Assembly: GCA_030609325.1 (NCBI GenBank) | Contig: JAUWCL010000005.1 | Coordinates: forward strand, 1-64,000 | DNA length: 64,000 nucleotides | Direction of reading: 5' to 3' | Source of the DNA: Candidatus Krumholzibacteriota bacterium | GTDB lineage: Bacteria; Krumholzibacteriota; Krumholzibacteriia; Krumholzibacteriales; Krumholzibacteriaceae | In this document: one piece after another, positions 10,489 through 45,102 of the stretch | Position numbering within the stretch: the first letter of the stretch is position 1 | How the letters are laid out: each line of letters starts with the position of its first letter | Notes under the pieces: generated by a model | The model's input: only the letters and a program-made list of their open reading frames with translations | The model's database searches: none | What the model was told of the DNA's origin: nothing | Position numbers and translations under genes: made by a program

Positions 10489-10592
10489 CCTGTCCACCTC
10501 TTCCATCGGTGGGGCCGATACTTCACTTGAAAGGTAATCAATCGGAGGGCGTTGCGAAAGTCGATATTGCGTAATTCCGGAGTGCGGGTCCG

Positions 10593-24441: not shown

Positions 24442-24909
24442 TCAGTGATCGCCGCCCCGAATCATACCTGCTGCGTGCGCCAGAAGAGGCGCGAGCAGCC
24501 GGACGCAGAAGGATGCCCCGCGCACCGAGCCGGGAATGTTCACGATCAGCGTCTTCCCCCTCATCCCTGACCAGCCCCTCGAGAGGGCAGCGTTCGGCGT
24601 CTCCTTCAGCGATTCCGATCTGAGCATCTCGGAGATTCCCGGAACGGCACGGTCGCAGAAACGTTCGGTGACCTCGGGGGTGATGTCCCTCGGCCCGAGA
24701 CCGGTGCCCCCCGTAGTGATGATCGCGTCTCCACCGAGGCCCGACTCGAGCGAACGCTCGATCTCCTTCTCTTCGTCGGGCACGACAGCGACCTCAACTT
24801 CGGCGCCGGGGATCGACTCCTCCAGTATCTCTCTGACGGCCGGGCCGGAGAGGTCCTCGTACTCGCCCCTCGAGGCCCTGTCAGATATCGTAATGACCAG
24901 TATCTTCAT
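24442..24909 (-). CDS. mogA: MogA/MoaB-family molybdopterin adenylyltransferase
   Basis: About 155 residues from the ATG at 24909; a GTG four codons upstream is an alternative. The family core is intact: [18 protein letters not shown] at the N-terminus and TTGGTGLGPRDITPE (about 80-94), which binds molybdopterin. The enzyme adenylates molybdopterin (or its tungsten-pathway equivalent) before metal insertion by MoeA. It is the last gene of the eleven-gene tungsten/pterin operon and overlaps the MOSC gene by 29 bases, so the translation of the two is probably coupled. Confidence 0.92.
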   Translation of the reverse strand: MKILVITISDRASRGEYEDLSGPAVREILEESIPGAEVEVAVVPDEEKEIERSLESGLGGDAIITTGGTGLGPRDITPEVTERFCDRAVPGISEMLRSESLKETPNAALSRGWSGMRGKTLIVNIPGSVRGASFCVRLLAPLLAHAAGMIRGGDH

Positions 24910-25321
24910 CTGTGATCTCACCGCCCTCGACTACACTGGCGAAGACGCCCCTTCGCGGCATCACACAGTCGCCGGTCTTCTCGCGGATCGCGCAACCGTC
25001 GTGGCATTCCTTCCCGATCTGCGATATTTCGAGTACAGCATCCCCGATGCGCAGCTTCGTCCCGAGGGGAAGAGAAGGAAGGTCTATGCCTCTCGTCGTG
25101 ATGTTCTCGGCGAAGGCTCCCGGCACGAGCGAGTCGAGCCGCGCGCGCATCGTGTCGATGTCTTCGCAGGCGAGAAGCGACACCTGCCTCTTCCCCGGTC
25201 CGGCGTGCGCGTCCCCCTCGATCCCGTGCCCGGCGACCAGTCTGAACCTCGGTACCGGTTTCTTCGCCGTACCTTTCTCTTTCGATATGTTCAGCGATAC
25301 TATCTCAAATCTCTTCGTCAT
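24881..25321 (-). CDS. stand-alone MOSC-domain protein
   Basis: A 146-residue single-domain MOSC protein. The ATG overlaps the moaC stop (ATGA). Visible family features are [20 protein letters not shown], the [11 protein letters not shown] strand and KECHDGCAI with the conserved Cys that carries persulfide in this superfamily. Stand-alone MOSC proteins lie beside mog/moa genes and are thought to sulfurate or otherwise mature Mo/W cofactors or enzymes. That fits its place between moaC and mogA; exact chemistry is unproven. Confidence 0.9.
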
Positions 25322-25770
25322 ATATCTTCCTTCGTCTTCGACATCAGGGTGATATTCTCGATTGTCATATTCTTGTCGACAGCCTTGCACATGTCATAGA
25401 GAGTGAGTGCGGCGACCGACACGGCGGTCAGCGCCTCCATCTCGACGCCCGTCCTCGCCGTGCATGTGACCGTCGAGGTAATAGAGACACCGTCTTCCTT
25501 CAGTTCCAGGTCGACGGCGATGTCATCTATCGGGAGGGGATGACACAGGGGAATGAGTTCGCTCGTCTTCTTCGCCCCCATGATGCCGGCGATCCTCGCC
25601 GTCGCGAGGGCGTCGCCCTTCTTCAGCAGTCCTTCGCGAAGTTTCTCCACAGTCTCTCCGGCCATCCTGACGTATCCGGAAGCGATTGCGGTACGTCTCG
25701 AGACGGGCTTCCCGGAAACGTCGACCATCTTCACCTTTCCCTCCCTGTCGATATGCGAGAAATTTCTCAA
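25318..25770 (-). CDS. moaC: cyclic pyranopterin monophosphate synthase MoaC
   Basis: A 150-residue MoaC. The family blocks [32 protein letters not shown] and [24 protein letters not shown] are complete. MoaC converts the MoaA product to cyclic pyranopterin monophosphate, the first stable intermediate of pterin cofactors. The start is TTG with GGAGG eight bases upstream, four bases after the moaA stop. Confidence 0.96.
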
Positions 25771-25774
25771 CTTT

Positions 25775-26590
25775 CTAACCTCCGATCTGTCTCATCGACC
25801 TTTCGCTGCACGACGTGCCCTCTTCCGGCTTGGCCGCCACCGCTCTCATTATGCTCCCCTCGATATCCTCGAAATCGACCTTGATCTCGACGTCGGAGAA
25901 GAGGCACGGCTTGAGGTATCCGTCGGCGGTCAGCCTCAGCCTGTTACACCTGTCGCACGGAAGCGGCCTGTCGAAGTCGTGCGGGGATTCAGTCTCACCG
26001 GCACGCCGTACGAGAGAAAACCTGTTTATCGTCTGCAGGACGAGCCCTTCCCGCGCGCAGAACGCCCGCATCCTGTCGACATCCTCGCGCGACTCGGTCG
26101 CGGATACGACCATGTTGATCTTGGTCCCCTCGAATCCCGCAGCCTGCGCCGCCTCGATCCCCCTGATAACGTCGGTCACGTCCCCTCCTCGGGTCAGCTC
26201 CCGGTACCTGACCGGATCGAGCGTGTCGAGCGAGATGTTGAGCCGGTCCAGCCCCGCATCTCTCAGTTCCACAGCCGTCTCCAGGGTGAGCAGGATCCCG
26301 TTCGTCGTCATCGAGATCTCGTCGAGGCCTTCAATCTTTCTCATCATCCTGACGAGGCCCGACAACCCCTTTCTCACAAGCGGCTCTCCCCCGGTCAGCC
26401 TGACCTTGCCGATCCCGAGGCCCGCCGCCGCACGAACGATCTCCGCGATCTCCTCGTAGGAGAGCATTTCACCGTGGCTCTTGAGCTCTATCCCTTCGGG
26501 AGGCATGCAGTACTCACATCTGAGGTTGCACCTGTCGGTCACCGACACCCTGAGATAGTTTATCTCTCTTCCGATCTTGTCTCTCAGCAT
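25775..26590 (-). CDS. moaA: GTP 3',8-cyclase MoaA, short form
   Basis: A radical-SAM MoaA of about 271 residues (ATG at 26590; one codon earlier at 26593 is equally possible). It has the SAM-cluster motif CNLRCEYC near residue 20, the SAM-binding [10 protein letters not shown], a C-terminal cluster motif [18 protein letters not shown] and the conserved C-terminal Gly-Gly. Typical MoaA has about 320-340 residues. The missing ~50 residues lie between the barrel and the C-terminal cluster, where the usual FMP-containing loop region is very short. All six cluster Cys are present, so activity is plausible. It overlaps the end of moeA. Confidence 0.92.
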
Positions 26591-27828
26591 CATCTCAATC
26601 CATTCGCCCGGCGCGGCGGTCCGGGAACGACGATCCTGACCTCCTCGCCCTTCTTGAGTGACTCGACCCCCGCAGGTATGCGAAGTATCCCGTCCGCCCG
26701 AGTGTAGGCATTGATGTGGGCCGAACCGTGATACTCGATTAATCGGGCCCATCCGTCGGGCGTCAGCCGTACCGGCACGTGCGCCGTCCGTACGGCGCTC
26801 TTTCTCGTGAAATCGCTGCCGAGCCGCACCGTGACCTCCAGCGGCCTATAAGCGTGCCCCATCAATCCGAAGCAGAACGGCTTGACGATTATCTCGAAGA
26901 GGACGAAGGCCGAGACGGGATTTCCCGGAAGGCCGAACACCCATGCGTCTTCGTGCCTGCCGAAGAGAAGGGGCCGGCCCGGCTTTATCGCAGCTCCGTG
27001 CACGAGCAGCTCGAATCCCGCCTCCTCGAGGCCGCCCGGAACAAAGTCGTAGTCGCCCATCGAGACGCCGCCGGAGAATATGTATACGTCGATCTCTCCA
27101 GACATGTGTTCGATCAGTTCCGGCACAGCGCCGGGCGTATCGGGCACGATACCGAGATACTCAGCCGACAGGCCTGTTTCTGCCGCCTGCGCCATCAGCT
27201 GCGGCCCGTTTGAGTTTCGTATCATTCCCTTTCGGATCGGCTCTCCCGGCTCTGCCAGCTCGTCACCGGTAACGGCGATCCCGAGAGCGGGCCTGACAGC
27301 GACCGGCGCCTTCGCATTGCCCATTGCCGCGAGAACAGCGATCTCCGAAGGGCGGATCAGCGATCCTTTTTCCAGAACTGTCTCCCCCCTGCGGATATCC
27401 TCGCCGAGAAGACATATGTTACTTCTGCCGCTGCCGCGGGTCACCGTGACGATGCCGTCTTCTTCCTCTGTATACTCGACCATGACGACCATATCCGCCC
27501 CGCGGGGCACGGCCGCGCCGGTCATGATCCTCGCGCATTCGCCCTCGCCGATCTCCTTTTCCGGCATCCGGCCGGCTGCCACCGTCTCGACGATCCTCAA
27601 CGGGCGATCGAGATCGGCGCTCCTGCAGGCGAAGCCGTCCATCGCCGACTTGTCGAACGGCGGCATGTCGATGTCGGAGACAATATCGGAGGCGAGCACC
27701 CTGCCCGCCGCATCGGCGAGGTCCACCTCTTCGCTGCCGAGCAGGCGCGTCGAGCCGAGTATCGTGTCCATCACCTCGTCGAACGGCATCAGCTTCCAGC
27801 CGGTCCGGTCTCTTTCAGGCCCAGTCAT
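26590..27828 (-). CDS. moeA: molybdopterin molybdenumtransferase MoeA
   Basis: A 412-residue MoeA with all expected segments: DMPPFDKSAMDGFA, ARIMTGAAVPRGADMVV, the central GIAVTGDELAEPGEPI, SGGVSMGDYDFVP, GLPGNPVSAFVLFE and a C-terminal beta-barrel. MoeA inserts Mo or W into adenylated pterin. In organisms with several copies one is often tungsten-specific; the genomic setting suggests tungsten here. It overlaps the preceding mobB-like gene by 14 bases with GGAG upstream. Confidence 0.96.
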   Translation of the reverse strand: MTGPERDRTGWKLMPFDEVMDTILGSTRLLGSEEVDLADAAGRVLASDIVSDIDMPPFDKSAMDGFACRSADLDRPLRIVETVAAGRMPEKEIGEGECARIMTGAAVPRGADMVVMVEYTEEEDGIVTVTRGSGRSNICLLGEDIRRGETVLEKGSLIRPSEIAVLAAMGNAKAPVAVRPALGIAVTGDELAEPGEPIRKGMIRNSNGPQLMAQAAETGLSAEYLGIVPDTPGAVPELIEHMSGEIDVYIFSGGVSMGDYDFVPGGLEEAGFELLVHGAAIKPGRPLLFGRHEDAWVFGLPGNPVSAFVLFEIIVKPFCFGLMGHAYRPLEVTVRLGSDFTRKSAVRTAHVPVRLTPDGWARLIEYHGSAHINAYTRADGILRIPAGVESLKKGEEVRIVVPGPPRRANGLR

Positions 27829-28848: not shown

Positions 28849-29943
28849 TCATCCTTCGATTATCTTCACGGCGCTCGCCTTGATGGAGGCGAAGACCCTG
28901 CTCCCCCTCTCGAGACCGAGTGATTCCACCGACCGCTCGGTGACTATCGCGACTATCGCCGCGCCCGCGTCGACGGTAACCTCCACTCCCCTCCTTGCGG
29001 GAACTATCTCGCTGACCGTTCCTTCGAACAGATTTCTCGCGCTCGTGTCGGGACGGTATGCCGACAGTGTCACGGCCTCGCTCCTCACCACGGCGGTCGC
29101 CTCGCCCTCACCGGCCTCACACAATGCCTCGAGACGGAACGGGGCCTCAGCATCCGACTCGAATACGGTCGTTCCGTCGGATTCCCTGCGCAGCCAGCCC
29201 CTGTACACATTCCTGATCCCGACGAACCTCGCGATGAACTCGGAGCCGGGATGGGTGAGGATGCGCTGCGGCGTGTCTACCTGAACCACCGTCCCGTTCT
29301 CCATGATCCCTATCTTCGTGGCCAGGGCCGCCGCTTCCTCGTAATCGTGCGTAATGTGGAGCATCGTCATCCCGCCGCGGTTGAGCTTTTTAAGGAGCGT
29401 GCGGATCTCGACCCTCGCCCCCGAATCGAGCGAGGACAACGGCTCGTCGAGCAGGAGGCACTCGGGGCCCGCGGCCAGGGCGCGCGCGAGTGCGGCCCTC
29501 TGCGCCTCACCGCCGGAAAGTGTCGCTGGGCTGCGGTCGAGCAGATGGCCGATGCCCGTCTCGGACGCGAGCAGTTCGACAAGTTTCTCGATATCGGAAT
29601 GCTTCATCCCCGAGGAGGCCGGCCCGTAGGCGATGTTCCTTCTCACCGACATGTGGGGAAAGAGCGCCTGGTCCTGGAAGACCATCCCGAGCCTCCTGCG
29701 CTGCATCCTCTCGCGGGTGATGTCGCGCCCGGCGAGAATGACACGCCCCGAATCGGACCGGATAACGCCGGTCAGCGTTTCCAGGAGGACCGTCTTGCCG
29801 GTGCCCGAAGCGCCGAGAAGGACGAAATATTCCCCTTCGTCGACGGTGAACGAGACACCCGAGATCGAAAACGCCCCGAGTCTCTTCGCAAGCCCATCGA
29901 CCTCCAGCATGGCGGCGCTTGTGATCTTCTCATACTTCGGCAT
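28849..29943 (-). CDS. wtpC: tungstate/molybdate ABC transporter ATPase with C-terminal TOBE domains
   Basis: A 364-residue ABC ATPase. Walker A GASGTGKT, Q-loop VFQDQALFP, signature LSGGEAQRAALARALA, Walker B LLLDEPLSS and the switch His (HITHD) are all intact. Residues about 235-364 form two TOBE-like segments, which in this subfamily can bind the oxyanion and regulate transport. GGAGG lies seven bases before the ATG, which overlaps the permease gene by 14 bases. With the neighbouring permease and binding protein it makes a complete importer. Confidence 0.93.
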   Translation of the reverse strand: MPKYEKITSAAMLEVDGLAKRLGAFSISGVSFTVDEGEYFVLLGASGTGKTVLLETLTGVIRSDSGRVILAGRDITRERMQRRRLGMVFQDQALFPHMSVRRNIAYGPASSGMKHSDIEKLVELLASETGIGHLLDRSPATLSGGEAQRAALARALAAGPECLLLDEPLSSLDSGARVEIRTLLKKLNRGGMTMLHITHDYEEAAALATKIGIMENGTVVQVDTPQRILTHPGSEFIARFVGIRNVYRGWLRRESDGTTVFESDAEAPFRLEALCEAGEGEATAVVRSEAVTLSAYRPDTSARNLFEGTVSEIVPARRGVEVTVDAGAAIVAIVTERSVESLGLERGSRVFASIKASAVKIIEG

Positions 29944-30724
29944 GGCTCCGCCTCCCCGCTATCATCCTCAGCGCTATAAAAAAAACGAGACAGACGGCGA
30001 CGAAGAGGACCGTCACCGGCCTTGCGTATTTCAGTCCGAAAGCGCCGAAGCGCTCGTAAATAAGTACAGGAGTGATCATCGGATGGTAGGCAATGATCAG
30101 CACCGCGCCGAACTCGCTCATACCCCTCGCCCACATCAGAACGAGGCCGGAGATGATCGACCTCCACGCCATCGGCATCGAGACGGTGAGAAACACCCTC
30201 AGCGGAGACGCGCCGAGGTTAAGCGCGGCCTGCTCGAGCCGGACAGGCACGGCGGCGAATCCGTCCCTGGCGGCGTTGACGAGGAAGGGGACGGAGACGA
30301 AGGCCATCGCGGCCATTATTCCCGCGACTCCACCGATGAAGGTCACTCCCAGCTTCTCACCGAGCGAACCGACCGGCGTTCCCGGCGCGAGCACCCCAAG
30401 CAGGGCTATCCCCACCGCCGAATGCGGTATGACTATCGGAAGATCGACAATGCCGTTGACCAGCTTCTTGAACGGGAATTCCTTTCTCGCCAGGATCCAG
30501 GCGAAGGGAACGGCGCCGAACGAGGCAATAAGCGTAGCCGCCATCGAGGCGCCCAGTGTCAGCCAGATGCTCGAAGTGACTTCCCGATCGGTCACAGCCT
30601 CTGACAGCTCCGCCTTACCGACGCTGAGAAACATCCCCGCCAGCGGCGCGACTATGAAGAGGAGCAACACTCCTCCGAGCGCCGCGAAGACGAGATGCAT
30701 CGGTTCGATGCGGGAGATACTCAA
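29930..30724 (-). CDS. wtpB: tungstate/molybdate ABC transporter permease
   Basis: A 264-residue inner-membrane permease with about six helices and the coupling (EAA) loop EQAALNLGASPLRVFLTVSMP. This ModB/WtpB-type domain forms a homodimeric channel. The likely start is TTG with AAGGA six bases upstream; an ATG at 30700 is a less supported alternative. It follows the binding-protein gene after 29 bases. Confidence 0.93.
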   Translation of the reverse strand: MSISRIEPMHLVFAALGGVLLLFIVAPLAGMFLSVGKAELSEAVTDREVTSSIWLTLGASMAATLIASFGAVPFAWILARKEFPFKKLVNGIVDLPIVIPHSAVGIALLGVLAPGTPVGSLGEKLGVTFIGGVAGIMAAMAFVSVPFLVNAARDGFAAVPVRLEQAALNLGASPLRVFLTVSMPMAWRSIISGLVLMWARGMSEFGAVLIIAYHPMITPVLIYERFGAFGLKYARPVTVLFVAVCLVFFIALRMIAGRRSHAEV

Positions 30725-30753: not shown

Positions 30754-31740
30754 CTATGCAGCCGGTCTCGCGTATTTCTTCAATCGGTCCGGGATAGCGC
30801 GATATGTCCCGGAGGGCGACGGGACCATCGACGGCTGGCCGGCCTCCTTCATCACCTTCATCCCCCCCGCCGGATCGAGGATGAAATCGACGAACTTGCG
30901 CGCGAGCTCCCGGCTCGGCGAGTTCGAGGGGATCGTGATCCCGTAGACCATTGGGTCGCCGCGCTTCATTATCTTCTCTCCAGGCTTCTTTCCCGAGATC
31001 TCGACGCTCACAGTACCGTAGTCGTCGGCAAACTCAGGCCTCTTGAGATTAATCTCATCGGGCAGGATAAGGAACTCGAGCCCGTGCTGCTGCGCCACCG
31101 AGCGATAGAGAAAGATATAATCGATCGTCCCAGTCTCGAGCAGGGCGAGAAGATCGGTCTCCTTCGGCCTGATGAAACGGTTGTCTTTCTCAAGCAGCCG
31201 AGCGGCCAGGCCGCTTTCGCCGTAATACTTCCCGGCGAGTTTCATCGTCAGCACGGCCCTGTAGCCGCACGGGTCGGCGTCGGGATCGGAGCGTCCGAAG
31301 ACCACACCGCGGTCGAGCAGCACCTCGTGCCAGTTCCCCGCGTCGATCTCGCCGTGCCGCTTCGAATGTTCCGTGTAGACGATCGACATCTCGTTGCTCG
31401 CAAACTTGATGTTCCAGGAGGCGTGGTCAGGGATGAGGAGCGCGTCGATCACCGTGTAGTCTGCCGACGCCATCACGTCGCATTTCCTTCCGAGGTCGGA
31501 TATCTTCCTCGCGCACGACCTGCTCCCGGCGGATTCGAGCCGAACGGCAACGCCGGGATTCTCCTCCATGAATATCCTGGAGATCCTCTTGAACGGCACC
31601 GACAGGCTGCCCGCGTGAAATACGATCAGCGTCCCTCCGGCGCTCTCTTTCGCCCTTTCCCCACCCCCGCATGACGGCAGGAGAATCGATCCGAAAACGA
31701 TCGCGACAGCAAGAAAAACCGATAATACGCGAACCCGCAT
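30754..31740 (-). CDS. wtpA: WtpA-type tungstate/molybdate-binding lipoprotein
   Basis: A 328-residue periplasmic lipoprotein. The ATG (MRVRVL) follows GGGAGG; the signal ends at lipobox LLPSC. After it comes the oxyanion-protein opening LIVFHAGSLSVPF. Further on, DPDADPCGYRAVLTMKLA is typical of WtpA, which binds tungstate and molybdate in octahedral geometry and favours tungstate; ModA-type proteins differ there. This and the AOR domains point to tungsten as the metal. It is the first gene of the eleven-gene minus-strand operon. Confidence 0.92.
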   Translation of the reverse strand: MRVRVLSVFLAVAIVFGSILLPSCGGGERAKESAGGTLIVFHAGSLSVPFKRISRIFMEENPGVAVRLESAGSRSCARKISDLGRKCDVMASADYTVIDALLIPDHASWNIKFASNEMSIVYTEHSKRHGEIDAGNWHEVLLDRGVVFGRSDPDADPCGYRAVLTMKLAGKYYGESGLAARLLEKDNRFIRPKETDLLALLETGTIDYIFLYRSVAQQHGLEFLILPDEINLKRPEFADDYGTVSVEISGKKPGEKIMKRGDPMVYGITIPSNSPSRELARKFVDFILDPAGGMKVMKEAGQPSMVPSPSGTYRAIPDRLKKYARPAA

Positions 31741-31784
31741 CCGCGGGTACCTCCCGGCGACAAAACCCCCCCTCCTGCTACCGC

Positions 31785-31812
31785 AAGATATCAAACGACA
31801 ATGAGTTGTCAA
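31785..31812 (-). promoter_or_regulatory. candidate promoter for the wtpA operon with overlapping inverted repeat
   Basis: On the minus strand TTGACA (complement of 31807-31812), a 16-base spacer and TATCTT (complement of 31785-31790) lie 45 bases before wtpA. The inverted repeat GACAA-N4-TTGTC (31797-31810) covers the -35 and spacer, as a repressor site would. Confidence 0.55.
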
Positions 31813-31814
31813 TG

Positions 31815-31836
31815 GATATGTACGACCATGCATATC
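31815..31836. promoter_or_regulatory. inverted repeat in the divergent control region
   Basis: GATATG (31815-31820) and CATATC (31831-31836) are perfect inverted arms with a 10-base spacer. They sit just upstream of the wtpA -35 and upstream of the AOR-fusion gene, the natural place for a shared operator. A weak plus-strand promoter (TTGCCG at 31839, TAATTT 18 bases on) would lie next to it. Arm sequence partly recalls the AT-rich ModE site, but this is not proof. Confidence 0.5.
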
Positions 31837-31951: not shown

Positions 31952-34900
31952 ATGTCTTCACACGATCGTATCGCTGAAATGAAGGGGGCGCGCGAAATCG
32001 TCACCCGATCCGACTTCGAGGTCGTGCCCCTGGACAAAGGCTACGCGAATCGCTGGCTGCGGATCGACGTCGGTACTGGAGAGATCTCGATCCACCCCGT
32101 CGATGACGAGATGAAGAGGCTCTGGACCGGCGGAAAGGGATTCGATCTCTGGATGACGTTCGGTGAGATCGATAAAGACACGAAGTGGGACAGCCCGAAC
32201 AATCCGATCTGTTTCTCGTCCGGCCCGCTCGGCGGCACGGTCTCTTTCCCCGGTTCGGGAAAGACGATCGCCACGGCGATATCCCCTCTGACCAGTTCGA
32301 TCATGGACTGCAACGTCGGCGGATACTTCGGGCCGTACCTCAAGTTCGCAGGATTCGACGCGATGATGGTGACCGGCAAGGCAGATGAGGATGTCATAGT
32401 CCTGATCAACGCGGTCGCGGGAAATGTAACTATCGAGAAGGCGCCCCTGGAAAGCGTCGACTCGCACCTGCTCGCCGAAGAGCTCGCCGAGATGTACGCC
32501 GACGACGAGCTCGACCTCCAGAACATCGCGTGCGTGTCGGCCGGACGCGGCGCGGAGCATACGAGGATGGGTATCCTCAACTTCTCCTTCTGGGACTGGC
32601 GGCGCGGCGTTGCGAGACTCAAGCAGGCCGGGCGCGGCGGTATCGGCACCGTCTTCCGCAACAAGAAAATCAAGGCCGTGGTCATCAAGAACAACCAGGT
32701 CACTCCCGCGTGGAAGATCGAGGAGAACAAGGCCGCGAAGATGATCACCCCGAAGAAGATCTCGATTCAGTGCAAGAACGAGATCGGGGAACTCCACGAA
32801 ATCATAGAAAAGTGGAACTGCGATCCCGAATATGTCATCGAGATGATGCAGGACATCCAGGAGCGCTTCCGCCATATCTCCAGGACGGCGATCGACGAGA
32901 TCAACCGCAAGACGGGCAAGCCGAAGTCGCATCTCTACCATATCGCGACCTTCTACAAGACCTTCTCCCTCGAGCCGAAGGGCGAGACGGTCATTCAGGT
33001 CTGCGTGGGAACCGCCTGCCACGTCAAGGGCTCGGCGAAGATCCTCGACTCGTTCGAGAGAGTCCTCGGAGTCGATACCGGCGGGACGACAGACGACAAC
33101 AGATACTCGCTCGAGGCGGTCGCCTGCCTCGGCGCCTGCTCGATAGCGCCGGTGGTGAAGATCGGCGAGGAGATATTCGGCAACGTCCAGTCGAAGGACG
33201 TCGAGAAGCTCCTTAAGCAGGCAAAGAGCGGCGGGGCGAAGAAGAAAAAGGCCGCTGCGGAGATCGCAAAGAGCGGCGAGGCGAAGATCGCGCCGGCAGA
33301 TCTCGAGAAGATAGCATCCGCACAAAAAGAAAAAGATGCCGGTTTCAAGAAGATGCTGATGGTCTGCACAGGCACAGGCTGTGTCGCCGCCAGGGGCTTC
33401 GACATCCGCGACGGGCTCGTGAAGACTCTCGAGGAGAAGGGGGTCTCTTCCGACTACGCCGTGGTCGCGACCGGGTGCAACGGCTTCTGCGCTTCCGGCC
33501 CGATTATCGTCATTCAGCCCGACGGTATATTCTACCAGAAGGTAAAGGAAAAGGACCTCGACGAGATCGTCGCCTCACTCGAGAGCGGTGAGACGATAGA
33601 ACGCCTCCTCTACAAAAACCCGGTCTCGGGCGAGACGAACGAGAAGATGGGCGACATCCCCTTCTTCAGCAAGCAGCAGCTTATCGCGCTGCGCAACAAG
33701 GGAATCATCGACCCGGAAAACATAGACCACTATATCGCGCGCGGCGGATATGCCGCGCTCCGCAAAGTCCTCGGCAGGATGAAGCCGGAGGAGGTCATCG
33801 ACGAGGTGATCGCCTCGGGCATCCGGGGACGCGGAGGCGGAGGCTTCCCCGCCGGCGTGAAATGGAGATCAGGCTGGAAGGCCGCGCAGGAGCGCGAGGA
33901 GGAGATCTTCGTAGTCTGCAACGCCGACGAGGGCGACCCCGGCGCCTTCATGGACCGCTCGATCATCGAGACCGACCCCCATTCGGTCATCGAGGGAATA
34001 ATCATCGGCGCCCGCGCCGTCGGCTCGACCGAGGGCTACATATACATCAGGAAGGAATACCCGCTCGCGCAGACGAGGCTGGCCAGGGCGATCGACCAGG
34101 CCCGCGAGTACGGACTGCTCGGCGACGACATCCTCGGCAGCGGGTTCTCATTCGACATTCACGTGCACCGCGGAGCGGGCGCGTTCGTATGTGGCGAGTC
34201 GAGCGCACTGATGGCCTCGATGGCCGGAAAGCCCGGAGAGCCGCGCGCGAAGTACGTGCACAGCGTCGAGTACGGGTTCCGCGACAAGCCGACCGTACTC
34301 AACAACGTCGAGACCTGGGCGAACATCCCCGAGATCATATCGAAGGGCGCGAAGTGGTTCGCCTCTATCGGCACGGGCGACGTCAGCGGGAATCCGTGGA
34401 ACGGCTCTTCGGGCACGAAGGTCTTCTCGCTCGTCGGCAACGTCCGCAACACCGGCCTCGTGGAGGTCCCGATGGGGATAACGCTCCGCGAAATCATCGA
34501 GGAGGTCGGCGGCGGCATCCCCGACGGACGGGAGTTCAAGGCCGTCCAGACCGGCGGGCCATCGGGCGGCTGCCTGCCGGCGGCGAAGCTAAACATGGAG
34601 GTCGACTTCGACTCGCTCATCGAGGCCGGCTCGATGATGGGATCGGGCGGCATGATCGTCATGGACGATCACACATGCATGGTCGACGTCGCGCGCTATT
34701 TCATCGACTTCCTCATGGACGAGTCGTGCGGGAAGTGCACCGCCTGCCGCGAGGGGCTCCACCTGATGAGCAACATCCTGAACCGTCTCTGCAATGGTGA
34801 GGGCCGGACCGGAGACATCGAGCGGCTCGAGGAACTCTGCGCGACAGTGCAGGACACGAGCCTCTGCCAGCTCGGAGGCTCGGCGCCCAATCCGGTGATG

Positions 34901-35158
34901 AGCACTATCAACTACTTCCGGGATGAATACAAGGAGCACATAAAGGAGAAGAAATGCCGCGCCGGGGTGTGCAAGGCGCTGATCGAATACCGGATCAGCG
35001 CGGACAACTGCACGGGATGCACGCTCTGCTTCAAGAACTGCCCCGTAGACGCGATCACCGGTGAGAAAAAAGAGGTCCACGTGATCGATCCCGGAAAATG
35101 CATCAAGTGCGGTATCTGCTACGAAGTCTGCAATTTCGACGCTGTGGAGGTGATATAA
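31952..35158 (+). CDS. AOR N-terminal domain fused to NuoE and NuoF-type diaphorase modules
   Basis: A 1068-residue fusion; AAGGAGG lies nine bases before the ATG. Residues about 29-250 match the N-terminal domain of aldehyde:ferredoxin oxidoreductase (GYFGPYLKFAGFDAMMVTGKA; RLKQAGRGGIGTVFRNKKIKAVV), which holds one side of the tungstopterin. About 262-440 is NuoE with [2Fe-2S] ligands Cys351, 356, 392, 396. A Lys/Ala linker leads to NuoF: a second thioredoxin-like [2Fe-2S] domain (Cys472, 477, 509, 513), the NADH/FMN glycine loop RGRGGGGFPAG (about 623), NADEGDPGAFMDRS, an SLBB region, and a [4Fe-4S] site (ESCGKCTAC from about 925). The C-terminus adds two ferredoxin clusters, as in HydB/Bfu-type bifurcating enzymes. 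It lacks the AOR catalytic C-terminal domains, which are in the next gene. Confidence 0.93.
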   Translation: MSSHDRIAEMKGAREIVTRSDFEVVPLDKGYANRWLRIDVGTGEISIHPVDDEMKRLWTGGKGFDLWMTFGEIDKDTKWDSPNNPICFSSGPLGGTVSFPGSGKTIATAISPLTSSIMDCNVGGYFGPYLKFAGFDAMMVTGKADEDVIVLINAVAGNVTIEKAPLESVDSHLLAEELAEMYADDELDLQNIACVSAGRGAEHTRMGILNFSFWDWRRGVARLKQAGRGGIGTVFRNKKIKAVVIKNNQVTPAWKIEENKAAKMITPKKISIQCKNEIGELHEIIEKWNCDPEYVIEMMQDIQERFRHISRTAIDEINRKTGKPKSHLYHIATFYKTFSLEPKGETVIQVCVGTACHVKGSAKILDSFERVLGVDTGGTTDDNRYSLEAVACLGACSIAPVVKIGEEIFGNVQSKDVEKLLKQAKSGGAKKKKAAAEIAKSGEAKIAPADLEKIASAQKEKDAGFKKMLMVCTGTGCVAARGFDIRDGLVKTLEEKGVSSDYAVVATGCNGFCASGPIIVIQPDGIFYQKVKEKDLDEIVASLESGETIERLLYKNPVSGETNEKMGDIPFFSKQQLIALRNKGIIDPENIDHYIARGGYAALRKVLGRMKPEEVIDEVIASGIRGRGGGGFPAGVKWRSGWKAAQEREEEIFVVCNADEGDPGAFMDRSIIETDPHSVIEGIIIGARAVGSTEGYIYIRKEYPLAQTRLARAIDQAREYGLLGDDILGSGFSFDIHVHRGAGAFVCGESSALMASMAGKPGEPRAKYVHSVEYGFRDKPTVLNNVETWANIPEIISKGAKWFASIGTGDVSGNPWNGSSGTKVFSLVGNVRNTGLVEVPMGITLREIIEEVGGGIPDGREFKAVQTGGPSGGCLPAAKLNMEVDFDSLIEAGSMMGSGGMIVMDDHTCMVDVARYFIDFLMDESCGKCTACREGLHLMSNILNRLCNGEGRTGDIERLEELCATVQDTSLCQLGGSAPNPVMSTINYFRDEYKEHIKEKKCRAGVCKALIEYRISADNCTGCTLCFKNCPVDAITGEKKEVHVIDPGKCIKCGICYEVCNFDAVEVI

Positions 35159-37156
35159 ATGGCCGACGGAAAGATCAACATCACGATCAACGGTATCGAG
35201 GCCTCCGTCCAGAAGGGCTCGTATCTCCTTCAGGCGCTCCGCGACAACGGAGTCGCGGTCCCGACGCTCTGCCACCACAAGGACCTCACCCCCTCGGGGA
35301 CGTGCAGGCTCTGCGTAGTCGAGGTCGAGCAGAGGGGAAAGAAGAAGCTCGTCACGTCGTGTAACTTCCCCGTACGCGGGGAGATCGCCGTGGACACCGA
35401 GTCGGAGAGGGTAAAGACCCACCGCAGGGTGCTCGCCGAGATGTACCTCGGCCGATGGCCGAACGTTCCGCTGATCCAGGAGGTCGCGGCGATTTGCGGC
35501 GCCACCGATAAAGAAAAATATCGCAGCGAGCTGACCGACGAGAATCCCAAAGCGTGCATCCTCTGCACCCACTGCGTGCGCGCGTGCGACGAGTTTGTAA
35601 AGGAGAGAATACTCGATTTCGCCGGCCGCGGGATCAAGCGTCACCTGACGATGCCCTTCGGCGAGGTCGATCCTCACTGCATCAACTGCACCTCGTGCGC
35701 GTATGTATGCCCGACCGGGGCGATCGAGATCGTCGACGACATGAACAACCCGGTCAACCCTCAGATGATCCGCGACTTCGGGATGAAGATAAACGCCGAG
35801 ATGGCCACCCTCGACAAAGACCAGTGCAGGATGCGCGAGGTCGGCACGGCGAACATCGTCGACGTGATGGACGCCTACGACCTGCTCCCCGTCCACAACT
35901 ACAAGTTCGGCTCGCATCCCGACACGAAGAACATCGACTCGAAGATCCTCAAAGCGAAGTACTTCACGCAGGACCACCCCGACGGTTGCTGGAAGGGATG
36001 TTCAATGGCGTGCGCCAAGGCCGTAGACGGCTTCGAGCTCAGGACCGGCCCATACAAGGGCGATCGCGTGGTAGTCGACGGTCCCGAGTACGAGACGTCT
36101 GCCGCGGGGGCCAACATGGGCTGCTTCGACGCCGACTTCATCGTCGAGTGGAACTTCTACTGCGACACGTACGGAATCGACACGATCTCGTTCGGCACCT
36201 GCATGGCCTTCGTGATGGAGGCCTTCGAGGCAGGCGTCATAACGACGGAGCACACGGGCGGCAAGGAGCTGAAATTCGGCGCCACCGAAGCGGTGATGGA
36301 GTGCATGCACGAGATCGCCGCAGGCGAGGGCTTCGGTGTCGAGGTCGGCCAGGGCATCCGTTACCTCAAGGAGAAATGGATAAGGGAGCTCGGCGCAGAC
36401 GCCGACTTCCTCCAGGACATCGGGATGGAGGTAAAGGGTCTCGAGTACTCCGAGTACGTCTCGAAGGAGTCGCTCGCCCAGCAGGCCGGCTACACGATGG
36501 CCGTCAAGGGCCCGCAGCACGACGAGGCCTGGCTGATCTTCATGGACATGGTAAACAACCAGATACCCACTTTCGAGGACAAGGCCGACGCCCTCTACTA
36601 CTATCCCCTCTGGAGAACGTGGTTCGGGCTTCACGGCCTGTGCAAGCTGATCTGGAACGACATCGTCCCGCTGAGCAACAAGGACTACGAACCCCAGGTA
36701 GCAGCGAAGGTCCCCGACCATGTCGAGGACTTCTTCCGCTTCTACGAGGGAATGACCGGTGAGCCGCTCGACGAGGAAGGGATGCTCGCCCAGTCGGCCC
36801 GTGTACACAACCTCCAGCGCGTGATGACGAGGATGCTCGGTTACGGCACCCGCAAAGACGACATGCCCCCGTTCAGGGCCGTCGGACCGGTGACGGCCGA
36901 GGAGTACGAGTCGCGCGCCGAGAGGTACGACAAGCAGCTCGAGGAGCTTGCCGGGTTCGACATGAAGGGTAAATCGACAGAGGAGAAGATGAAGGCGATC
37001 CGCGAGTACCGCATGGATCAGTACAACAGGGTCGTCGACGCCGCCTACGACCGCAGGGGCTGGACCCGCAACGGAGTCCCGAAGATCGAGAGGCTCAGGG
37101 AGCTCGGCATCGACATTCCCGAGCTCGTCGAGATAATAAAGGACGACCAGGAATAG
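35159..37156 (+). CDS. NuoG-type Fe-S domain fused to AOR C-terminal catalytic domains
   Basis: A 665-residue fusion, its ATG directly after the stop of the preceding gene. Residues 1-80 are a plant-type [2Fe-2S] domain (Cys38, 49, 52, 68). Next are two [4Fe-4S] sites, CILCTHCVRAC (about 133) and CINCTSCAYVC (about 174), as in NuoG/HoxU. From about 215 onward lie AOR domains 2 and 3: a cluster motif Cys277-x3-Cys281-x3-Cys285 with the fourth ligand Cys495 (GLHGLCKL), the GPEYET block near 308, and YGIDTISFG. Canonical AORs have C-x2-C-x3-C, so the first spacing is one residue longer. The AOR N-terminal domain is missing here and present in the previous gene. Together the two chains would make an NAD(P)-linked, perhaps bifurcating, tungsten aldehyde oxidoreductase. 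Confidence 0.93.
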   Translation: MADGKINITINGIEASVQKGSYLLQALRDNGVAVPTLCHHKDLTPSGTCRLCVVEVEQRGKKKLVTSCNFPVRGEIAVDTESERVKTHRRVLAEMYLGRWPNVPLIQEVAAICGATDKEKYRSELTDENPKACILCTHCVRACDEFVKERILDFAGRGIKRHLTMPFGEVDPHCINCTSCAYVCPTGAIEIVDDMNNPVNPQMIRDFGMKINAEMATLDKDQCRMREVGTANIVDVMDAYDLLPVHNYKFGSHPDTKNIDSKILKAKYFTQDHPDGCWKGCSMACAKAVDGFELRTGPYKGDRVVVDGPEYETSAAGANMGCFDADFIVEWNFYCDTYGIDTISFGTCMAFVMEAFEAGVITTEHTGGKELKFGATEAVMECMHEIAAGEGFGVEVGQGIRYLKEKWIRELGADADFLQDIGMEVKGLEYSEYVSKESLAQQAGYTMAVKGPQHDEAWLIFMDMVNNQIPTFEDKADALYYYPLWRTWFGLHGLCKLIWNDIVPLSNKDYEPQVAAKVPDHVEDFFRFYEGMTGEPLDEEGMLAQSARVHNLQRVMTRMLGYGTRKDDMPPFRAVGPVTAEEYESRAERYDKQLEELAGFDMKGKSTEEKMKAIREYRMDQYNRVVDAAYDRRGWTRNGVPKIERLRELGIDIPELVEIIKDDQE

Positions 37157-37159: not shown

Positions 37160-37789
37160 GTGTATATTCCAGGTATGAAAGGCCGCAATCCGATATTCGA
37201 ACGGAACGTTCCCGGCACGACGGAGAAGCTCCAGAAGGCTACAGTCGGGATCGCCGGCTGTGGCGGTCTCGGCTCGAACGCCGCGGTGGCGCTCGTGCGC
37301 GCCGGCATCGGACGGCTGATCCTCGTCGACCACGATATAGTCGAGGCCTCGAATCTCAACCGCCAGCACTACTTCCAGACCGACATCGGGAAGCCCAAGG
37401 TCGAAGCGCTCGCGGCGCATCTGAAGGCGATCAATCCCGACGTGGAGCTGACCCTTCAGGATGTCGAGCTGACGCCGGAGGCCATTGCGTCGATCTTCGT
37501 GAACGCAGACCTGCTTATCGAGGCGTTCGACAGGGCCGAACTCAAGCACTGGCTGATTCAGGCGTGGTGCCTCGCCTTCCCCGACAAGCCTGTCATCGCG
37601 GCGAGCGGTGTTTCGGGGTGTGGGAATACCGGCGCGATGCGCGTTCACTCCTCGGGCAACATCCATGTATGCGGCGACGAGGAATCGGACATGAGCATGG
37701 GACTCTGCGCGGCGCGTGTGATGATGGCGGCGAGCATGGAGGCAAACGTAGCGATAGAGCTGCTCACATCAGAAGATAAACGGTCATGA
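37160..37789 (+). CDS. ThiF/MoeB-family adenylyltransferase (short form)
   Basis: A 209-residue E1-like enzyme of the short ThiF type. The nucleotide site GCGGLGSNAAVALVRAGIG and NLNRQHYF are intact. It adenylates the C-terminal Gly-Gly of a small sulfur carrier; the carrier gene follows with a four-base overlap. ThiF in thiamine synthesis is the textbook role, but the place after the AOR subunits and the lack of thiamine genes favour tungstopterin dithiolene sulfur supply. GTG at 37160 with AGGAA upstream is the likely start. Confidence 0.85.
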   Translation: MYIPGMKGRNPIFERNVPGTTEKLQKATVGIAGCGGLGSNAAVALVRAGIGRLILVDHDIVEASNLNRQHYFQTDIGKPKVEALAAHLKAINPDVELTLQDVELTPEAIASIFVNADLLIEAFDRAELKHWLIQAWCLAFPDKPVIAASGVSGCGNTGAMRVHSSGNIHVCGDEESDMSMGLCAARVMMAASMEANVAIELLTSEDKRS

Positions 37790-37986
37790 TAATCGTCAAC
37801 AACAGGGACAAGGTCGAATGGCACGAGGGGATGACCGTCCAGGACGTGCTCGACGCGATGGGATACGATTACGCGCTGATAACGGTGACTGTAGAGGGAA
37901 CGCTCGTTCCCGAAGACGACTACGGCACCCAGACCGTACCCGACGGCTCGAATGTCGGACTCTTCCACCTCGCCCACGGCGGCTGA
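37786..37986 (+). CDS. MoaD/ThiS-like sulfur carrier
   Basis: A 66-residue ubiquitin-like protein ending in the functional Gly-Gly (FHLAHGG). The MTVQDVLDAMGYDYALITVTVEG segment fits the MoaD/ThiS beta-grasp fold. It would be activated by the overlapping ThiF-like enzyme and donate sulfur to the pterin. No MoaE partner is in the window. In several bacteria a MoaD-like gene lies beside AOR genes, supporting a dedicated carrier. Confidence 0.87.
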   Translation: MIIVNNRDKVEWHEGMTVQDVLDAMGYDYALITVTVEGTLVPEDDYGTQTVPDGSNVGLFHLAHGG

Positions 37987-38359: not shown

Positions 38360-38398
38360 TGTATTTGATTGTCGCTGGAGGGGAGGAATCGTCCGGAA

Positions 38399-40348
38399 AT
38401 GAAGGTTTCGCTGCTTACAAGGCTGTTGTTGAGTTTTATTATCGTGATCGTCATCAGCGGGACATTTTCTACGGTGGTCGGGGTGAGGATGATAAGCGAC
38501 AGGATCATGAGACAAGCCCAGGATAAGGTCAGGCTGGATCTGAATACCGCACGTATGGAGTACGCTGAATCAATCAAAAACGTGCGGAATGTTGTCCGGT
38601 GCACTTGTATCAGGACCTTTATTAAAGACGCTCTGGCAACCGGAAACGCCGCGATTCTGGCGCGTGAGCTGGAAAGCATCAGACAACGCGAATCAGTGGA
38701 CGTCCTGACATTGACCGACTCGAACGGTAAGGTCCTTCTTAGGGCGCGAAATCCATCGGTCAAAGGCGACAGCCAGGCAGATAATCCGATAATAGCGAAG
38801 GTATTATCAGAGAAACGCGTGGTCGCTTCAACCGAGATCGTTGCAGAAGAGCAGCTTCAGATGGAATCCCAAGACTTGGCTAAACGGGCTCGCATGAGAT
38901 TAATCCCGATCCCGAAGATGAAGCCGACCGAAAATACTGAAGAAACATCGGGAATGATGATCAAGGCCGCGGGACCCATCCTAAGCGATCACGGAGAGCT
39001 GCTGGGGGTGCTTTACGCTGGCAGACTGCTGAACCGGGACAACAGGCTCGTTGATAGTATAAAAGAGACGGTGTACCAGAATGAGGTATATCAGGGGAGA
39101 GAGATAGGCGCCGCAACGATTTTTCAAGGAGATCTCCGTATATCGACGAACATCCAGATGGAGGATGGCAGGCGGGCGATAGGCACTCGTGTTTCAGCGG
39201 AGGTGAACGAATGTGTCCTGAGTGAAGGGAAGCGCTGGATGGAACGGGCCTTCGTCGTGAATGACTGGTATATAACAGCGTACGAACCGATACGGGATGT
39301 ATCCGGAAAGGTCATAGGCATCTTGTACGTCGGGATGCTCGAGCGGAAATTCACCGATATGAGGAGAAACGTTCTATGGGCCTTCGTGGGAATTTCGTTT
39401 GGCGGGATCGTCCTGTCCGTCGTGATATGCTATTTCTTGTCCAGGGCTCTTACAAAACCGGCAGACGACCTGGTCCTCGCCGCACGGCGCTTGGCCGACG
39501 GTGATTTCAAACAACGTGTGCAGCCTGAGGAGTCTATCGTAGAGATCGGACTACTGGGCAGAACGTTCAACATAATGGCTTCTTCGATAGAAGAGAGGGA
39601 CGAGCAACTGCGTCAGCGGGCGGAGAATGAGATCAAGGAGTCAAAGAAACTGGCAATGATAGGCCAGTTGGCCTCCGGTGTCGCTCATGAGATAAACAAC
39701 CCGCTGGGAGGGATTCTGCTCTTCAGCCGGCTGCTTTTACGAAAGGCTCCTGCCGAAGGCACTGAGAGGGAAAACTTAGAACGGATTGCCAGGGAGGCTG
39801 AGCGCTGCCAGAAGATCGTTCGGGGCCTGCTGGAATTCGCCGGCCAGCGAGAACCGAAAACCGAACAGCTCAATTTGAACGATGTTGTTCAAAAGGCGTT
39901 ATGCCTTCTAGAAAACCAGGCGTTGTTCCATAACATCGAAGTAGTCAAACGTCTTCAGCCGGATCTTCCGCCGGTCTTCGCTGACGAGTCCCAGATAGAG
40001 CAGGTATTTGTCAACATCTTGATGAATGCGGCCGAAGCTATGGAGGGAAAGGGCGTTATGACAATCACCACGAGACAGGCCGCTGCGGACGACCGGATTG
40101 AGATCAGCTTCACCGATACCGGCCCCGGGATATCCGAGAAGGACCTTCAGCAACTGTTCGAGCCGTTCTTCACGACCAAGGAAGTAGGACACGGAACGGG
40201 CCTGGGCCTGTCGATCAGCTACGGAATAATCGAAAGACACGGAGGGTCTATGGAAGTCATCAGCAGTCTCGGCGAGGGAAGTACTTTCACCGTATCGCTG
40301 CCGCCGACTTCAAACTGTGCGGCACGACAGACGAGGGAAAATACCTGA
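38399..40348 (+). CDS. Cache-domain sensor histidine kinase (NtrB-class)
   Basis: A 649-residue membrane kinase. Residues about 5-28 are the first membrane helix; about 30-325 an extracytoplasmic double-Cache-like sensor (GVLYAGRLLNRDN, GRRAIGTRV, GKVIGILYVGML); then a second helix (about 335-358), HAMP linker, HisKA with the phospho-acceptor motif GVAHEINNPLGG, and an HATPase domain with NILMNAAEA, DTGPGIS and HGTGLGLS. Its stop overlaps the start of the next gene, an NtrC-type regulator, which is surely its partner. The signal is unknown; Cache domains usually bind small organic molecules, and an aldehyde, acid or amine linked to the AOR pathway is a guess. Confidence 0.93.
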   Translation: MKVSLLTRLLLSFIIVIVISGTFSTVVGVRMISDRIMRQAQDKVRLDLNTARMEYAESIKNVRNVVRCTCIRTFIKDALATGNAAILARELESIRQRESVDVLTLTDSNGKVLLRARNPSVKGDSQADNPIIAKVLSEKRVVASTEIVAEEQLQMESQDLAKRARMRLIPIPKMKPTENTEETSGMMIKAAGPILSDHGELLGVLYAGRLLNRDNRLVDSIKETVYQNEVYQGREIGAATIFQGDLRISTNIQMEDGRRAIGTRVSAEVNECVLSEGKRWMERAFVVNDWYITAYEPIRDVSGKVIGILYVGMLERKFTDMRRNVLWAFVGISFGGIVLSVVICYFLSRALTKPADDLVLAARRLADGDFKQRVQPEESIVEIGLLGRTFNIMASSIEERDEQLRQRAENEIKESKKLAMIGQLASGVAHEINNPLGGILLFSRLLLRKAPAEGTERENLERIAREAERCQKIVRGLLEFAGQREPKTEQLNLNDVVQKALCLLENQALFHNIEVVKRLQPDLPPVFADESQIEQVFVNILMNAAEAMEGKGVMTITTRQAAADDRIEISFTDTGPGISEKDLQQLFEPFFTTKEVGHGTGLGLSISYGIIERHGGSMEVISSLGEGSTFTVSLPPTSNCAARQTRENT

Positions 40349-41697
40349 TGCCCTATTGCGCGAATATCCTGATTGTGGACGATGATGAATCCATGAGGGC
40401 TGGATGTGTTCAGACCTTGACCGAAGAAGGATACAGGGCGCAATCCGTGGATAATGGAAAGCGCGCTCTGGAAGAAATCGATAAAGTATCTTTCGATGTG
40501 ATCATTCTGGATTTGAAAATGCCCGGTATACCCGGAATGGAGGTCCTGAAAAAGATCAAGGAGTCCGACGCGACTTCCATTGTCATCATTATTACCGGTT
40601 ACGGGACGATAGATGTGGCTGTCGAGTCGATGCGGAAGGGGGCATACGACTTCATCACCAAGCCGTTCACCCCGGAAGCGCTTTTAAAGGTTGTAGAGAG
40701 GGCAGTCGACAGCCGCAGGCGGGAGCTCGAGTATTCGCTGGCTGATACCGAGGCGGCGGGTAGCGTTTCCGGAGACAAGATCATCGGGCGTTCACACGTC
40801 ATCATGAAGATCACAGAGCTTATCGAGCAGGTCGCACGCACCGACTCCACGGTGCTGATTTACGGGGAAACAGGTGTCGGCAAGGAGCTCGTTGCGAATA
40901 ACATTCACAACTTGAGCTTGCGCCGGAAAAAGCCTTTCGTGGTGGTGGATTGCGGAACATTGGTCGAAACCCTGTTTGAAAGCGAGATGTTCGGGCATGC
41001 AAAAGGTTCTTTCACGGGGGCTATAGAAACCACGCGGGGAAAATTCGAGCTAGCCAACGGCGGGACGATATTCTTGGATGAAATTACGAACATATCTATC
41101 GGCCTGCAATCCAGGCTGTTACGTGTCATCCAAGAAAAGGAAATCTCGAAGATTGGCAGCCTGGAAAAGATAATAGTCGATGTCCGGATTATATCGGCTA
41201 CCAACAAGGATCTTCCCAAGGAAGTTCGGGAAGGCCGGTTCAGGGAGGATTTGTTCTACAGGCTGAATGTAGTTCCTGTACATCTATTGCCCTTACGGGA
41301 AAGAAAGGAAGACATTCCCATCCTCGCCGAGCATTTCCTGGCCAGGGCGTGCATAAATGAAAAAGCCAAGATACCAAGATTATCCGCCGATGCCGTGCGC
41401 TTCCTGCAAGATTACGGTTGGCCTGGAAACGTAAGGGAACTTAAAAATACGATAGAATATGCGATAGTCACATGTAAGGGTGATACGATCGGCCCCGGAG
41501 ATCTGTCGATCATCGGCAAGGATGGGGCGGATGAATCAAAGGAATTCAAGGAAGGATCACTTGCCCAATCGGAAAAGAAAGAGATAATCCGGACCCTTGA
41601 GCAATTTGACGGGCACAGAGCCAAGACGGCCGAATATCTCGGAATAAATCGAAAGACGCTGCGTGAGAAGATTCGGAAGTATGGAATCGAGATATAG
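40348..41697 (+). CDS. NtrC-family sigma-54-dependent response regulator
   Basis: A 449-residue activator. The receiver domain has the DDDES acidic pocket and phospho-Asp in VIILDLKMPG. The AAA+ domain has Walker A GETGVGKE and a sigma-54 contact loop GSFTGA (usually GAFTGA; Ser at position two). The C-terminal Fis-type HTH is KTAEYLGINRKTLREKIRKYG. It activates sigma-54 promoters after phosphorylation by the preceding kinase. A near-perfect sigma-54 promoter lies 190 bases past its stop, ahead of the diaphorase operon, which is the obvious target. Confidence 0.95.
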   Translation: MPYCANILIVDDDESMRAGCVQTLTEEGYRAQSVDNGKRALEEIDKVSFDVIILDLKMPGIPGMEVLKKIKESDATSIVIIITGYGTIDVAVESMRKGAYDFITKPFTPEALLKVVERAVDSRRRELEYSLADTEAAGSVSGDKIIGRSHVIMKITELIEQVARTDSTVLIYGETGVGKELVANNIHNLSLRRKKPFVVVDCGTLVETLFESEMFGHAKGSFTGAIETTRGKFELANGGTIFLDEITNISIGLQSRLLRVIQEKEISKIGSLEKIIVDVRIISATNKDLPKEVREGRFREDLFYRLNVVPVHLLPLRERKEDIPILAEHFLARACINEKAKIPRLSADAVRFLQDYGWPGNVRELKNTIEYAIVTCKGDTIGPGDLSIIGKDGADESKEFKEGSLAQSEKKEIIRTLEQFDGHRAKTAEYLGINRKTLREKIRKYGIEI

Positions 41698-42067
41698 CGG
41701 CTCGGCCGATAGACCGCCCGTCGAGAATTGTCACAATAATACCCGTCGCCTCTTATGGCGGATACATAAAGTACCGTTCCGGCTGCTATAAACCGACGTG
41801 TTAATTATTGCAGCGGACACGGATCTCAATTTTATCCCTTTGAACAGCACAGCGTTATGGAAAGCAGGTATTGCCCGGCTTGTGAGGGGGCACGCTGTTT
41901 GCTCATATACAAGTTGCACCCCCGTGCGCGGCAAAGGGTTCTCGAAGAGAACCGCTGCGGCTGGGGTCAGGCAGGGTTACACGCCCGGAGCGCCAAGTAC
42001 CGAGGACCGAGGTGATTGAAAGGTGCCTGAAGCTTACTGTCGGCCGGGTCGGAAAGGAGCGCGAACG
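41698..42067 (+). other. regulatory region of the diaphorase operon
   Basis: No gene recognised. It holds an odd-spaced palindrome ATTGTCACAAT (41727-41737), a candidate activator site about 150 bases upstream of the sigma-54 promoter listed separately. The transcript leader would be about 150 bases, with no clear riboswitch. Confidence 0.6.
41888..41903 (+). promoter_or_regulatory. sigma-54 promoter
   Basis: GGCACG-CTGT-TTGCT matches the sigma-54 consensus (T)GGCACG-N4-TTGCW. The invariant GG (41889-41890) and GC (41901-41902) are exactly ten bases apart. It precedes the RR-NuoE gene and follows the gene for a sigma-54 activator. Confidence 0.85.
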
Positions 42068-45068: not shown

Positions 45069-45102
45069 CTGAGCCTGGAAAGATAAAAGGTGGGAATCCA
45101 AC

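Follow-up and report, generated by a model that had tools for sequence, protein, structure and literature searches.

Can the fold of a tungsten aldehyde oxidoreductase (AOR) be cut in two, with its parts placed on separate chains that each also carry part of an electron-transfer module? This question is raised by two genes in a 64,000-nucleotide stretch of DNA from a Candidatus Krumholzibacteriota bacterium (the window: GenBank assembly GCA_030609325.1, contig JAUWCL010000005.1, positions 1 to 64,000). A sequence-only reading of the window had described, at positions 31952-37156, an N-terminal AOR domain (AOR_N) fused before NuoE-NuoF in one gene and the C-terminal AOR domains (AOR_C) fused after a NuoG-type iron-sulphur (Fe-S) domain in the next gene. 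We find that these coordinates are exact and that Pfam agrees with both descriptions, giving Fer2_4, a Fer4 dicluster and AFOR_C for the second gene. The two open reading frames (ORFs) are adjacent and collinear, with the ATG of ORF2 directly after the stop of ORF1, and their homologues in relatives also abut, mostly as a TAATG overlap. Their features are as follows.

31952..35158, + strand: ORF1, 1068 aa, AOR_N followed by WorC (NuoE) and WorB (HydB-type NuoF) (Pfam; phmmer against the PDB)
32051..32692, + strand: AOR domain 1 (AFOR_N), ORF1 residues 34-247, the tungstopterin base (Pfam 7e-47, profile 2-198 of 199)
32795..33223, + strand: NuoE/WorC [2Fe-2S] domain (2Fe-2S_thioredx), ORF1 residues 282-424 (Pfam; ligands)
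33347..34942, + strand: HydB/WorB with Trx-like [2Fe-2S], FMN/NADH domain and N3-type [4Fe-4S], ORF1 residues 466-997
34991..35149, + strand: 2x[4Fe-4S] tail (two Fer4) of HydB/WorB, ORF1 residues 1014-1066 (Pfam; ligands)
35159..37156, + strand: ORF2, 665 aa, WorA-type Fe-S domain followed by AOR domains 2-3 (Pfam)
35171..35749, + strand: WorA/HydA-type N-terminal domain, ORF2 residues 5-197 (Pfam Fer2_4 at 5-82, Fer4 dicluster)
35786..37111, + strand: AOR domains 2-3 (AFOR_C), ORF2 residues 210-651 (Pfam 2e-85, profile 5-385 of 385)

The AOR fold is divided without any part missing, since the AFOR_N and AFOR_C profiles are both fully used. Family profiles of the AOR_N and AOR_C halves match residues 6-210 and 240-601, respectively, of the Pyrococcus AOR (1aor), and thus the cut lies at the boundary between domains 1 and 2. 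Both AOR domains (IPR013983 and IPR001203) are complete but stand on two chains, rather than on the single chain that defines WorL in the WOR/AOR family. In the HydB/NuoF part of ORF1, Pfam recognises Complex1_51K, SLBB and NADH_4Fe-4S and then two Fer4 domains; residues 466-1065 place with the bifurcating HydB/WorB proteins, the closest solved chains being 7q4v_B and 9mqx_B (phmmer against the PDB). The same search matches ORF2 residues 5-195 to the NuoG-like chain (WorA) of 9mqx, which the PDB titles an electron-bifurcating tungstopyranopterin aldehyde oxidoreductase. WorA, WorB and WorC of the Class IV WORs are all present in the window proteins. The NuoE-NuoF module named in the sequence-only reading is indeed there, although that reading did not mention the Trx-like [2Fe-2S] site and the 2x[4Fe-4S] tail that make this NuoF HydB-like.

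The residues that mark an aldehyde-oxidising WOR active site are T243, E313, Y427 and H448 in PfAOR numbering (PMC13328260), and their counterparts in ORF2 (T230, E312, Y433 and H454) are invariant in 81 of 81 sequences, as are the cysteines of the AOR [4Fe-4S] cluster (C277, C281, C285 and C495) and two aspartates, D336 and D341. Similarly, K104, N121, K224 and R228 of AOR_N are invariant (64/64). These four align with positions of 1aor that we take to bind the pterin cofactor, and the roles of 1aor residues beyond the four named active-site ones are presumed here. Two signatures set the split family apart: CxxxCxxxC in place of CxxCxxxC, and a glycine (G490) at D489 of the second pterin motif. 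The BfuBC core is defined by flavin mononucleotide (FMN) together with six Fe-S clusters, of which B holds five and C holds one (PMC9304861). Its ligands are all found in the window proteins, comprising the NuoE [2Fe-2S], the Trx [2Fe-2S], the N3-type [4Fe-4S], H996/C1002/C1007 and two Fer4. We assume that the H996/C1002/C1007 site is the unusual cluster of BfuBC. The WorA domain has ligands for one [2Fe-2S] cluster (C38, C49, C52 and C68) and two [4Fe-4S] clusters; the NuoG-type His-Cys3 cluster is missing from it, as it is from WorA of 9mqx.

To determine how widely this arrangement occurs, GTDB contigs were scanned with the AOR_C alignment, and the best 80 of 177 confirmed stretches were read. 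These 80 split loci show 58-95% identity, and their titles name ∼15 phyla, among them Krumholzibacteriota, Acidobacteriota/Aminicenantes, KSB1, Eiseniibacteriota, Fibrobacterota, Myxococcota, Bacillota, Bdellovibrionota, Elusimicrobiota, Cloacimonadota, Bacteroidota, Planctomycetota, Muiribacteriota, CSSED10-310 and Fermentibacterota. Some of these labels are surely binning errors, because a locus labelled Clostridia (L080) and another labelled Dojkabacteria (L081) are identical in aligned AOR_C; one or the other bin probably contains contaminating DNA. In the window's own class, 17 of 80 genomes carry the split AOR, and the search at the level of the phylum comprised the same 80 genomes. AOR_C is fused to the WorA domain in all 80 loci, and AOR_N lies upstream in every one of the 63 whose contig extends far enough. 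The sequence-only reading had proposed a search for genomes with the same AOR_N-NuoEF / NuoG-AOR_C pair; the arrangement is found in at least 80 other MAG (metagenome-assembled genome) loci, a recurrence far beyond chance.

The split might still be an artefact of assembly or annotation, or the genes might be decayed halves complemented by a full-length AOR elsewhere, and in favor of this the data come from MAGs only and one ORF2 homologue (L051) has an in-frame stop. The ratio of nonsynonymous to synonymous substitution rates between the window and its relatives is ∼0.08-0.16 for AOR_N and AOR_C alike (∼0.09 overall), and both halves are thus under purifying selection. In quick maximum-likelihood trees, with support by the SH-like approximate likelihood ratio test (SH-aLRT) only and no bootstrap, each half forms one split clade relative to 21 full-length AORs of the same genome set (SH-aLRT 100), and the first branch in both trees is Fermentibacterota. 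The pairwise distances of AOR_N and AOR_C are correlated, with an r of 0.86 over 64 pairs, a sign of co-evolution between the halves. In the genome of the window, which is 95% complete, AFOR_N and AFOR_C each match once, in both cases inside the split operon, and profile search found no full-length AOR in this genome; in 9 of 44 other genomes, the only AFOR_C match is also the split one. The sequence-only reading had listed a full-length AOR elsewhere and a mis-assembly joining two loci as what would overturn it: the genome yields no such AOR, and recurrence in 80 MAG loci rules out the mis-assembly. Given 80 contigs alike, the low substitution ratios, the invariant active site and the lack of a full-length AOR in the genome, an artefact is refuted for the family as a whole, and the split AOR is confirmed as a real, conserved family.

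The degree of fusion differs among loci, although the gene order (AOR_N, NuoE, HydB, WorA-AOR_C) is the same. Most Fermentibacterota split loci have four genes, with AOR_N alone (∼262 aa); many loci have AOR_N-NuoE / HydB / WorA-AOR_C, and others AOR_N-NuoE-HydB / WorA-AOR_C as in the window. Thus, the two giant proteins stressed in the sequence-only reading exist in the window but mark only the fused extreme of a series, in which Fermentibacterota keep AOR_N, NuoE and HydB separate. On the AOR_C tree, the fusion state of HydB requires 9 changes and the stand-alone AOR_N only 1. Chain 1 is reduced (∼780 aa) in seven loci (L055, L060, L061, L064, L066, L078 and L117), which keep AOR_N and a NuoF with FMN and the N3 cluster but are without the NuoE [2Fe-2S], the Trx [2Fe-2S] and both Fer4 clusters. 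Two further loci have a shorter chain 1 with AOR_N and little recognisable NuoE/NuoF (L094 3300-4868, 522 aa; L113 3288-4823, 511 aa). An apparent natural fusion into a single chain (a 1785-aa frame in genome G015, L011/L033) was rejected, since the ORF1 homologue stops at 9936 and is read in a different frame, which the long open frame merely overlaps.

How the split arose is indicated by relatives in which the chain is undivided. The AOR_C family is present in 32 of 42 Fermentibacterota genomes searched, and 7 of the 10 read in detail carry an unsplit chain of ∼720 aa (L180-L183, L185, L187 and L188) that is 50-54% identical to the window in AOR_N and 53-60% in AOR_C, compared to 25-35% for ordinary AORs. 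These sisters share the CxxxCxxxC and GxxGLC signatures with the split family, and each is directly preceded by an overlapping gene for a four-cluster ferredoxin of the WorS type; in the surrounding 10-11 kb that were read, no WorABC domain was detected. In the AOR_C tree the unsplit sisters fall outside and basal to the split clade, whose monophyly is retained (SH-aLRT 97), and by this phylogeny the split enzyme originated from an unsplit enzyme of the WorSL type. The basal position of the sisters and their WorS gene point to a single insertion of worCBA into worL between domains 1 and 2. Most likely, then, worCBA was inserted once into the worL of a WorSL enzyme, WorA became fused to domain 2, and WorS, which would have become superfluous as a relay, was lost. 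Indeed, a WorS-like gene stands beside the core in only one of the 80 split loci, just upstream in L066, and none was seen around the core in the others, a count that concerns core neighbourhoods, as no search for WorS was made in the rest of the genome. That the near relatives are one chain is the best evidence we have that the two halves make one enzyme.

We therefore favor, as the probable explanation, a single tungsten aldehyde oxidoreductase whose fold is split over two chains and built into an electron-bifurcating module of the Bfu type (HydABC-like). Domain 1 of WorL stands at the N-terminal end of chain 1 (AOR_N-WorC-WorB) and domains 2-3 at the C-terminal end of chain 2 (WorA-AOR_C); the W-bis-pterin site, located at the junction of domain 1 with domains 2/3, would therefore form only when both chains assemble. 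Electrons from an aldehyde would pass through W to the AOR [4Fe-4S] cluster (C277/C281/C285/C495), then through the two [4Fe-4S] clusters and the [2Fe-2S] cluster of the WorA domain to the FMN and clusters of WorBC, and from there jointly to NAD+ and ferredoxin, so that a distinct WorS relay, as used by other Class II-IV enzymes, would be dispensable. The predicted net reaction is aldehyde + NAD+ + oxidised ferredoxin to acid + NADH + reduced ferredoxin. A tungsten bis-pterin cofactor is supported indirectly by the neighbouring WtpABC, Moa/Moe, ThiF and WorX genes, which may supply the tungstopterin. A further idea, which we consider rather doubtful, is that the division is itself functional and more than tolerated. 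With domain 1 carried by the NADH/FMN chain and domains 2-3 by the WorA chain, motions within the bifurcating module could open, close or re-dock the W site, and catalysis would then be mechanically gated by the NAD+/ferredoxin redox state.

Several observations weigh against a bifurcating aldehyde oxidoreductase, and some fit other enzymes. Schut et al. 2022 (PMC9304861) state that clusters B2-B5 are absent from homologues that do not bifurcate, and by this criterion the seven reduced loci, one of them (L066) with the WorS-like ferredoxin gene, should not bifurcate; the split is thus not tied to bifurcation, which is not constant within the family. Under this alternative, the split enzyme would be an ordinary aldehyde oxidoreductase linked to NAD+ without bifurcation, or to ferredoxin, and its module would be a mere diaphorase. 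We think this unlikely, as the window protein and most relatives hold the full set of BfuBC ligands and are nearest to the bifurcating HydB/WorB. The family also has G490 where other AORs carry Asp or Asn, and in domain 1 a Lys for Arg76, so that pterin binding may differ. These changes in the second pterin motif, and the CxxxCxxxC spacing of the Fe-S ligands, would suit a tungstopterin enzyme with a non-aldehyde substrate, for example an aryl-CoA reductase like class II benzoyl-CoA reductase, or one run in reverse as a carboxylate reductase; in BamBCDEFGHI, too, an AOR homologue is combined with subunits of the BfuABC-like kind (PMC13328260). Such a substrate seems improbable, given that the T243/E313/Y427/H448 set is invariant, that the AOR_C profile reaches 1e-22 to 1e-25 against aldehyde oxidoreductases and only 6e-6, over a short stretch, against BamB (4z3w), which led us to reject membership in the benzoyl-CoA reductases, and that no Bam-like genes were recognised among the recurrent neighbours. 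No conserved substrate gene was noticed in the neighbourhoods of the split loci, and this lack of consistent linkage also counts against the favored explanation, as does the fact that all 80 loci are MAGs, with no cultured member found. Finally, the AlphaFold2 models of ORF1 and ORF2 as single chains, made with 12-13 sequences supplied, have pLDDT (predicted local distance difference test) scores of 49 and 62 and give no structural proof of docking; this small input is probably the reason for their poor quality, and the Foldseek matches listed for them are HydB/NuoF relatives only.

Among known systems, the bifurcating enzyme that we favor is most like the Class IV WORs, defined as WorLSABC, encoded in operons ordered SLCBA or CBASL and a small share of the family (PMC13328260). 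Members such as those of Acetomicrobium mobile (9mqx, Wor-Bfu) and Eubacterium limosum (ElWOR1) also combine an AOR-type unit with WorA, WorB and WorC of the same Fe-S make-up, have a WorA without the His-Cys3 cluster and in many cases have worX nearby. In Class IV, WorL is one chain and WorS is a separate four-cluster subunit, whereas the split enzyme is arranged L_N-C-B / A-L_C, with WorA fused to L_C and, L066 apart, no WorS gene, and it thus falls outside the five-subunit definition of the class. The unsplit Fermentibacterota WorSL has one chain plus an overlapping WorS and no worABC matches nearby, where the split enzyme has two chains around CBA. Type 1 Bfu enzymes (FeFe-HydABC, Nfn-Bfu and Fdh-Bfu) also have the catalytic domain fused to BfuA, but in the split enzyme BfuA carries just a portion of the catalytic fold, and the BfuBC side carries the remainder; its BfuA cluster set (no A3/A5) is of the Type 2 kind, unlike Type 1. 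The Class III enzyme AorABC from Aromatoleum aromaticum (8c0z) and the Class I AOR from Pyrococcus have the same fold and active-site residues in an undivided AOR chain, with NAD+ reached through an FAD subunit or with ferredoxin only. Class II benzoyl-CoA reductase BamB-I resembles the split enzyme in joining an AOR homologue to BfuABC-like subunits (BamIHG) but has an undivided BamB (one 653-aa chain in 4z3w), additional BamD-F subunits and a weak AOR_C match.

A published census of 4,064 WOR sequences (PMC13328260) lacks the split family because it demands both AOR domains on one sequence. We found no paper describing a split or NuoF-fused AOR in a literature search that was not exhaustive and was thin on subscription journals, in line with the earlier statement that an AOR fold divided across chains is without known precedent. 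The sequence-only reading had spoken of an undescribed system; this holds for the split fold in the literature searched, but the enzyme is a split, WorS-less relative of bifurcating WorLSABC rather than something unrelated. It would add a WorS-less bifurcating WOR design from uncultured lineages, the split form being carried by many uncultured anaerobes. In this metalloenzyme, the module that accepts the electrons appears to have been inserted into the catalytic fold, dividing it, and the divided state has persisted in many phyla; one phylum (Fermentibacterota) still has the unsplit form, which resembles the ancestor. The split also offers an experimental handle, as the halves may be separated to probe formation of the pterin site and its coupling to bifurcation.

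The genes around the operon are listed here; ThiF and WorX downstream of ORF2 had gone unmentioned in the earlier account.

37160..37789, + strand: ThiF/MoeB-like adenylyltransferase, the usual partner of WOR genes
37786..37986, + strand: WorX, a 66-aa MoaD/ThiS-like protein ending in GG, with a 4-nt overlap with thiF
30754..31833, - strand: WtpA tungstate-binding protein, divergently transcribed (TIGR03730, 301.8 bits, cut-off 242.75)
29930..30724, - strand: WtpB tungstate permease
28849..29943, - strand: WtpC tungstate transporter ATPase
24442..27828, - strand: pterin cofactor genes MoCF_biosynth (MogA/MoaB-like), MOSC, MoaC, MoaA and MoeA

WtpABC is thus divergently upstream of ORF1, with the Moa/Moe genes farther out, and a WorX-like gene is present in 51 of 69 loci. 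Rnf, which could serve as a sink for NADH or reduced ferredoxin, is encoded on the operon's contig at a distance of ∼31 kb, a little beyond the end of the window (RnfC gene G000:C8:68125-69414). A search of the window's genome found no iron-type alcohol dehydrogenase (Fe-ADH), and in the 249 plasmid records that had AOR or Fe-S matches, coverage of ORF2 stayed below 80% in every case. The in-frame stop in L051 lies within the ORF2 homologue at 9380-11401 (the same as L005/L035) and is either a sequencing error or the mark of a pseudogene. Antisense open frames recur opposite the core genes in most of L050-L129 and look like by-products of conserved coding sequence.

A second Bfu-like trio is found in the window at 42023-45651 (+ strand), consisting of a 391-aa fusion of a response-regulator receiver domain (REC) with NuoE, a 630-aa HydB-like protein and a WorA/HoxU-like protein of 182 aa that stands alone. 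It has no adjoining catalytic subunit, and its neighbours are a sensor kinase and a sigma-54 regulator (38369-41697); the receiver/NuoE fusion suggests redox-linked signalling.

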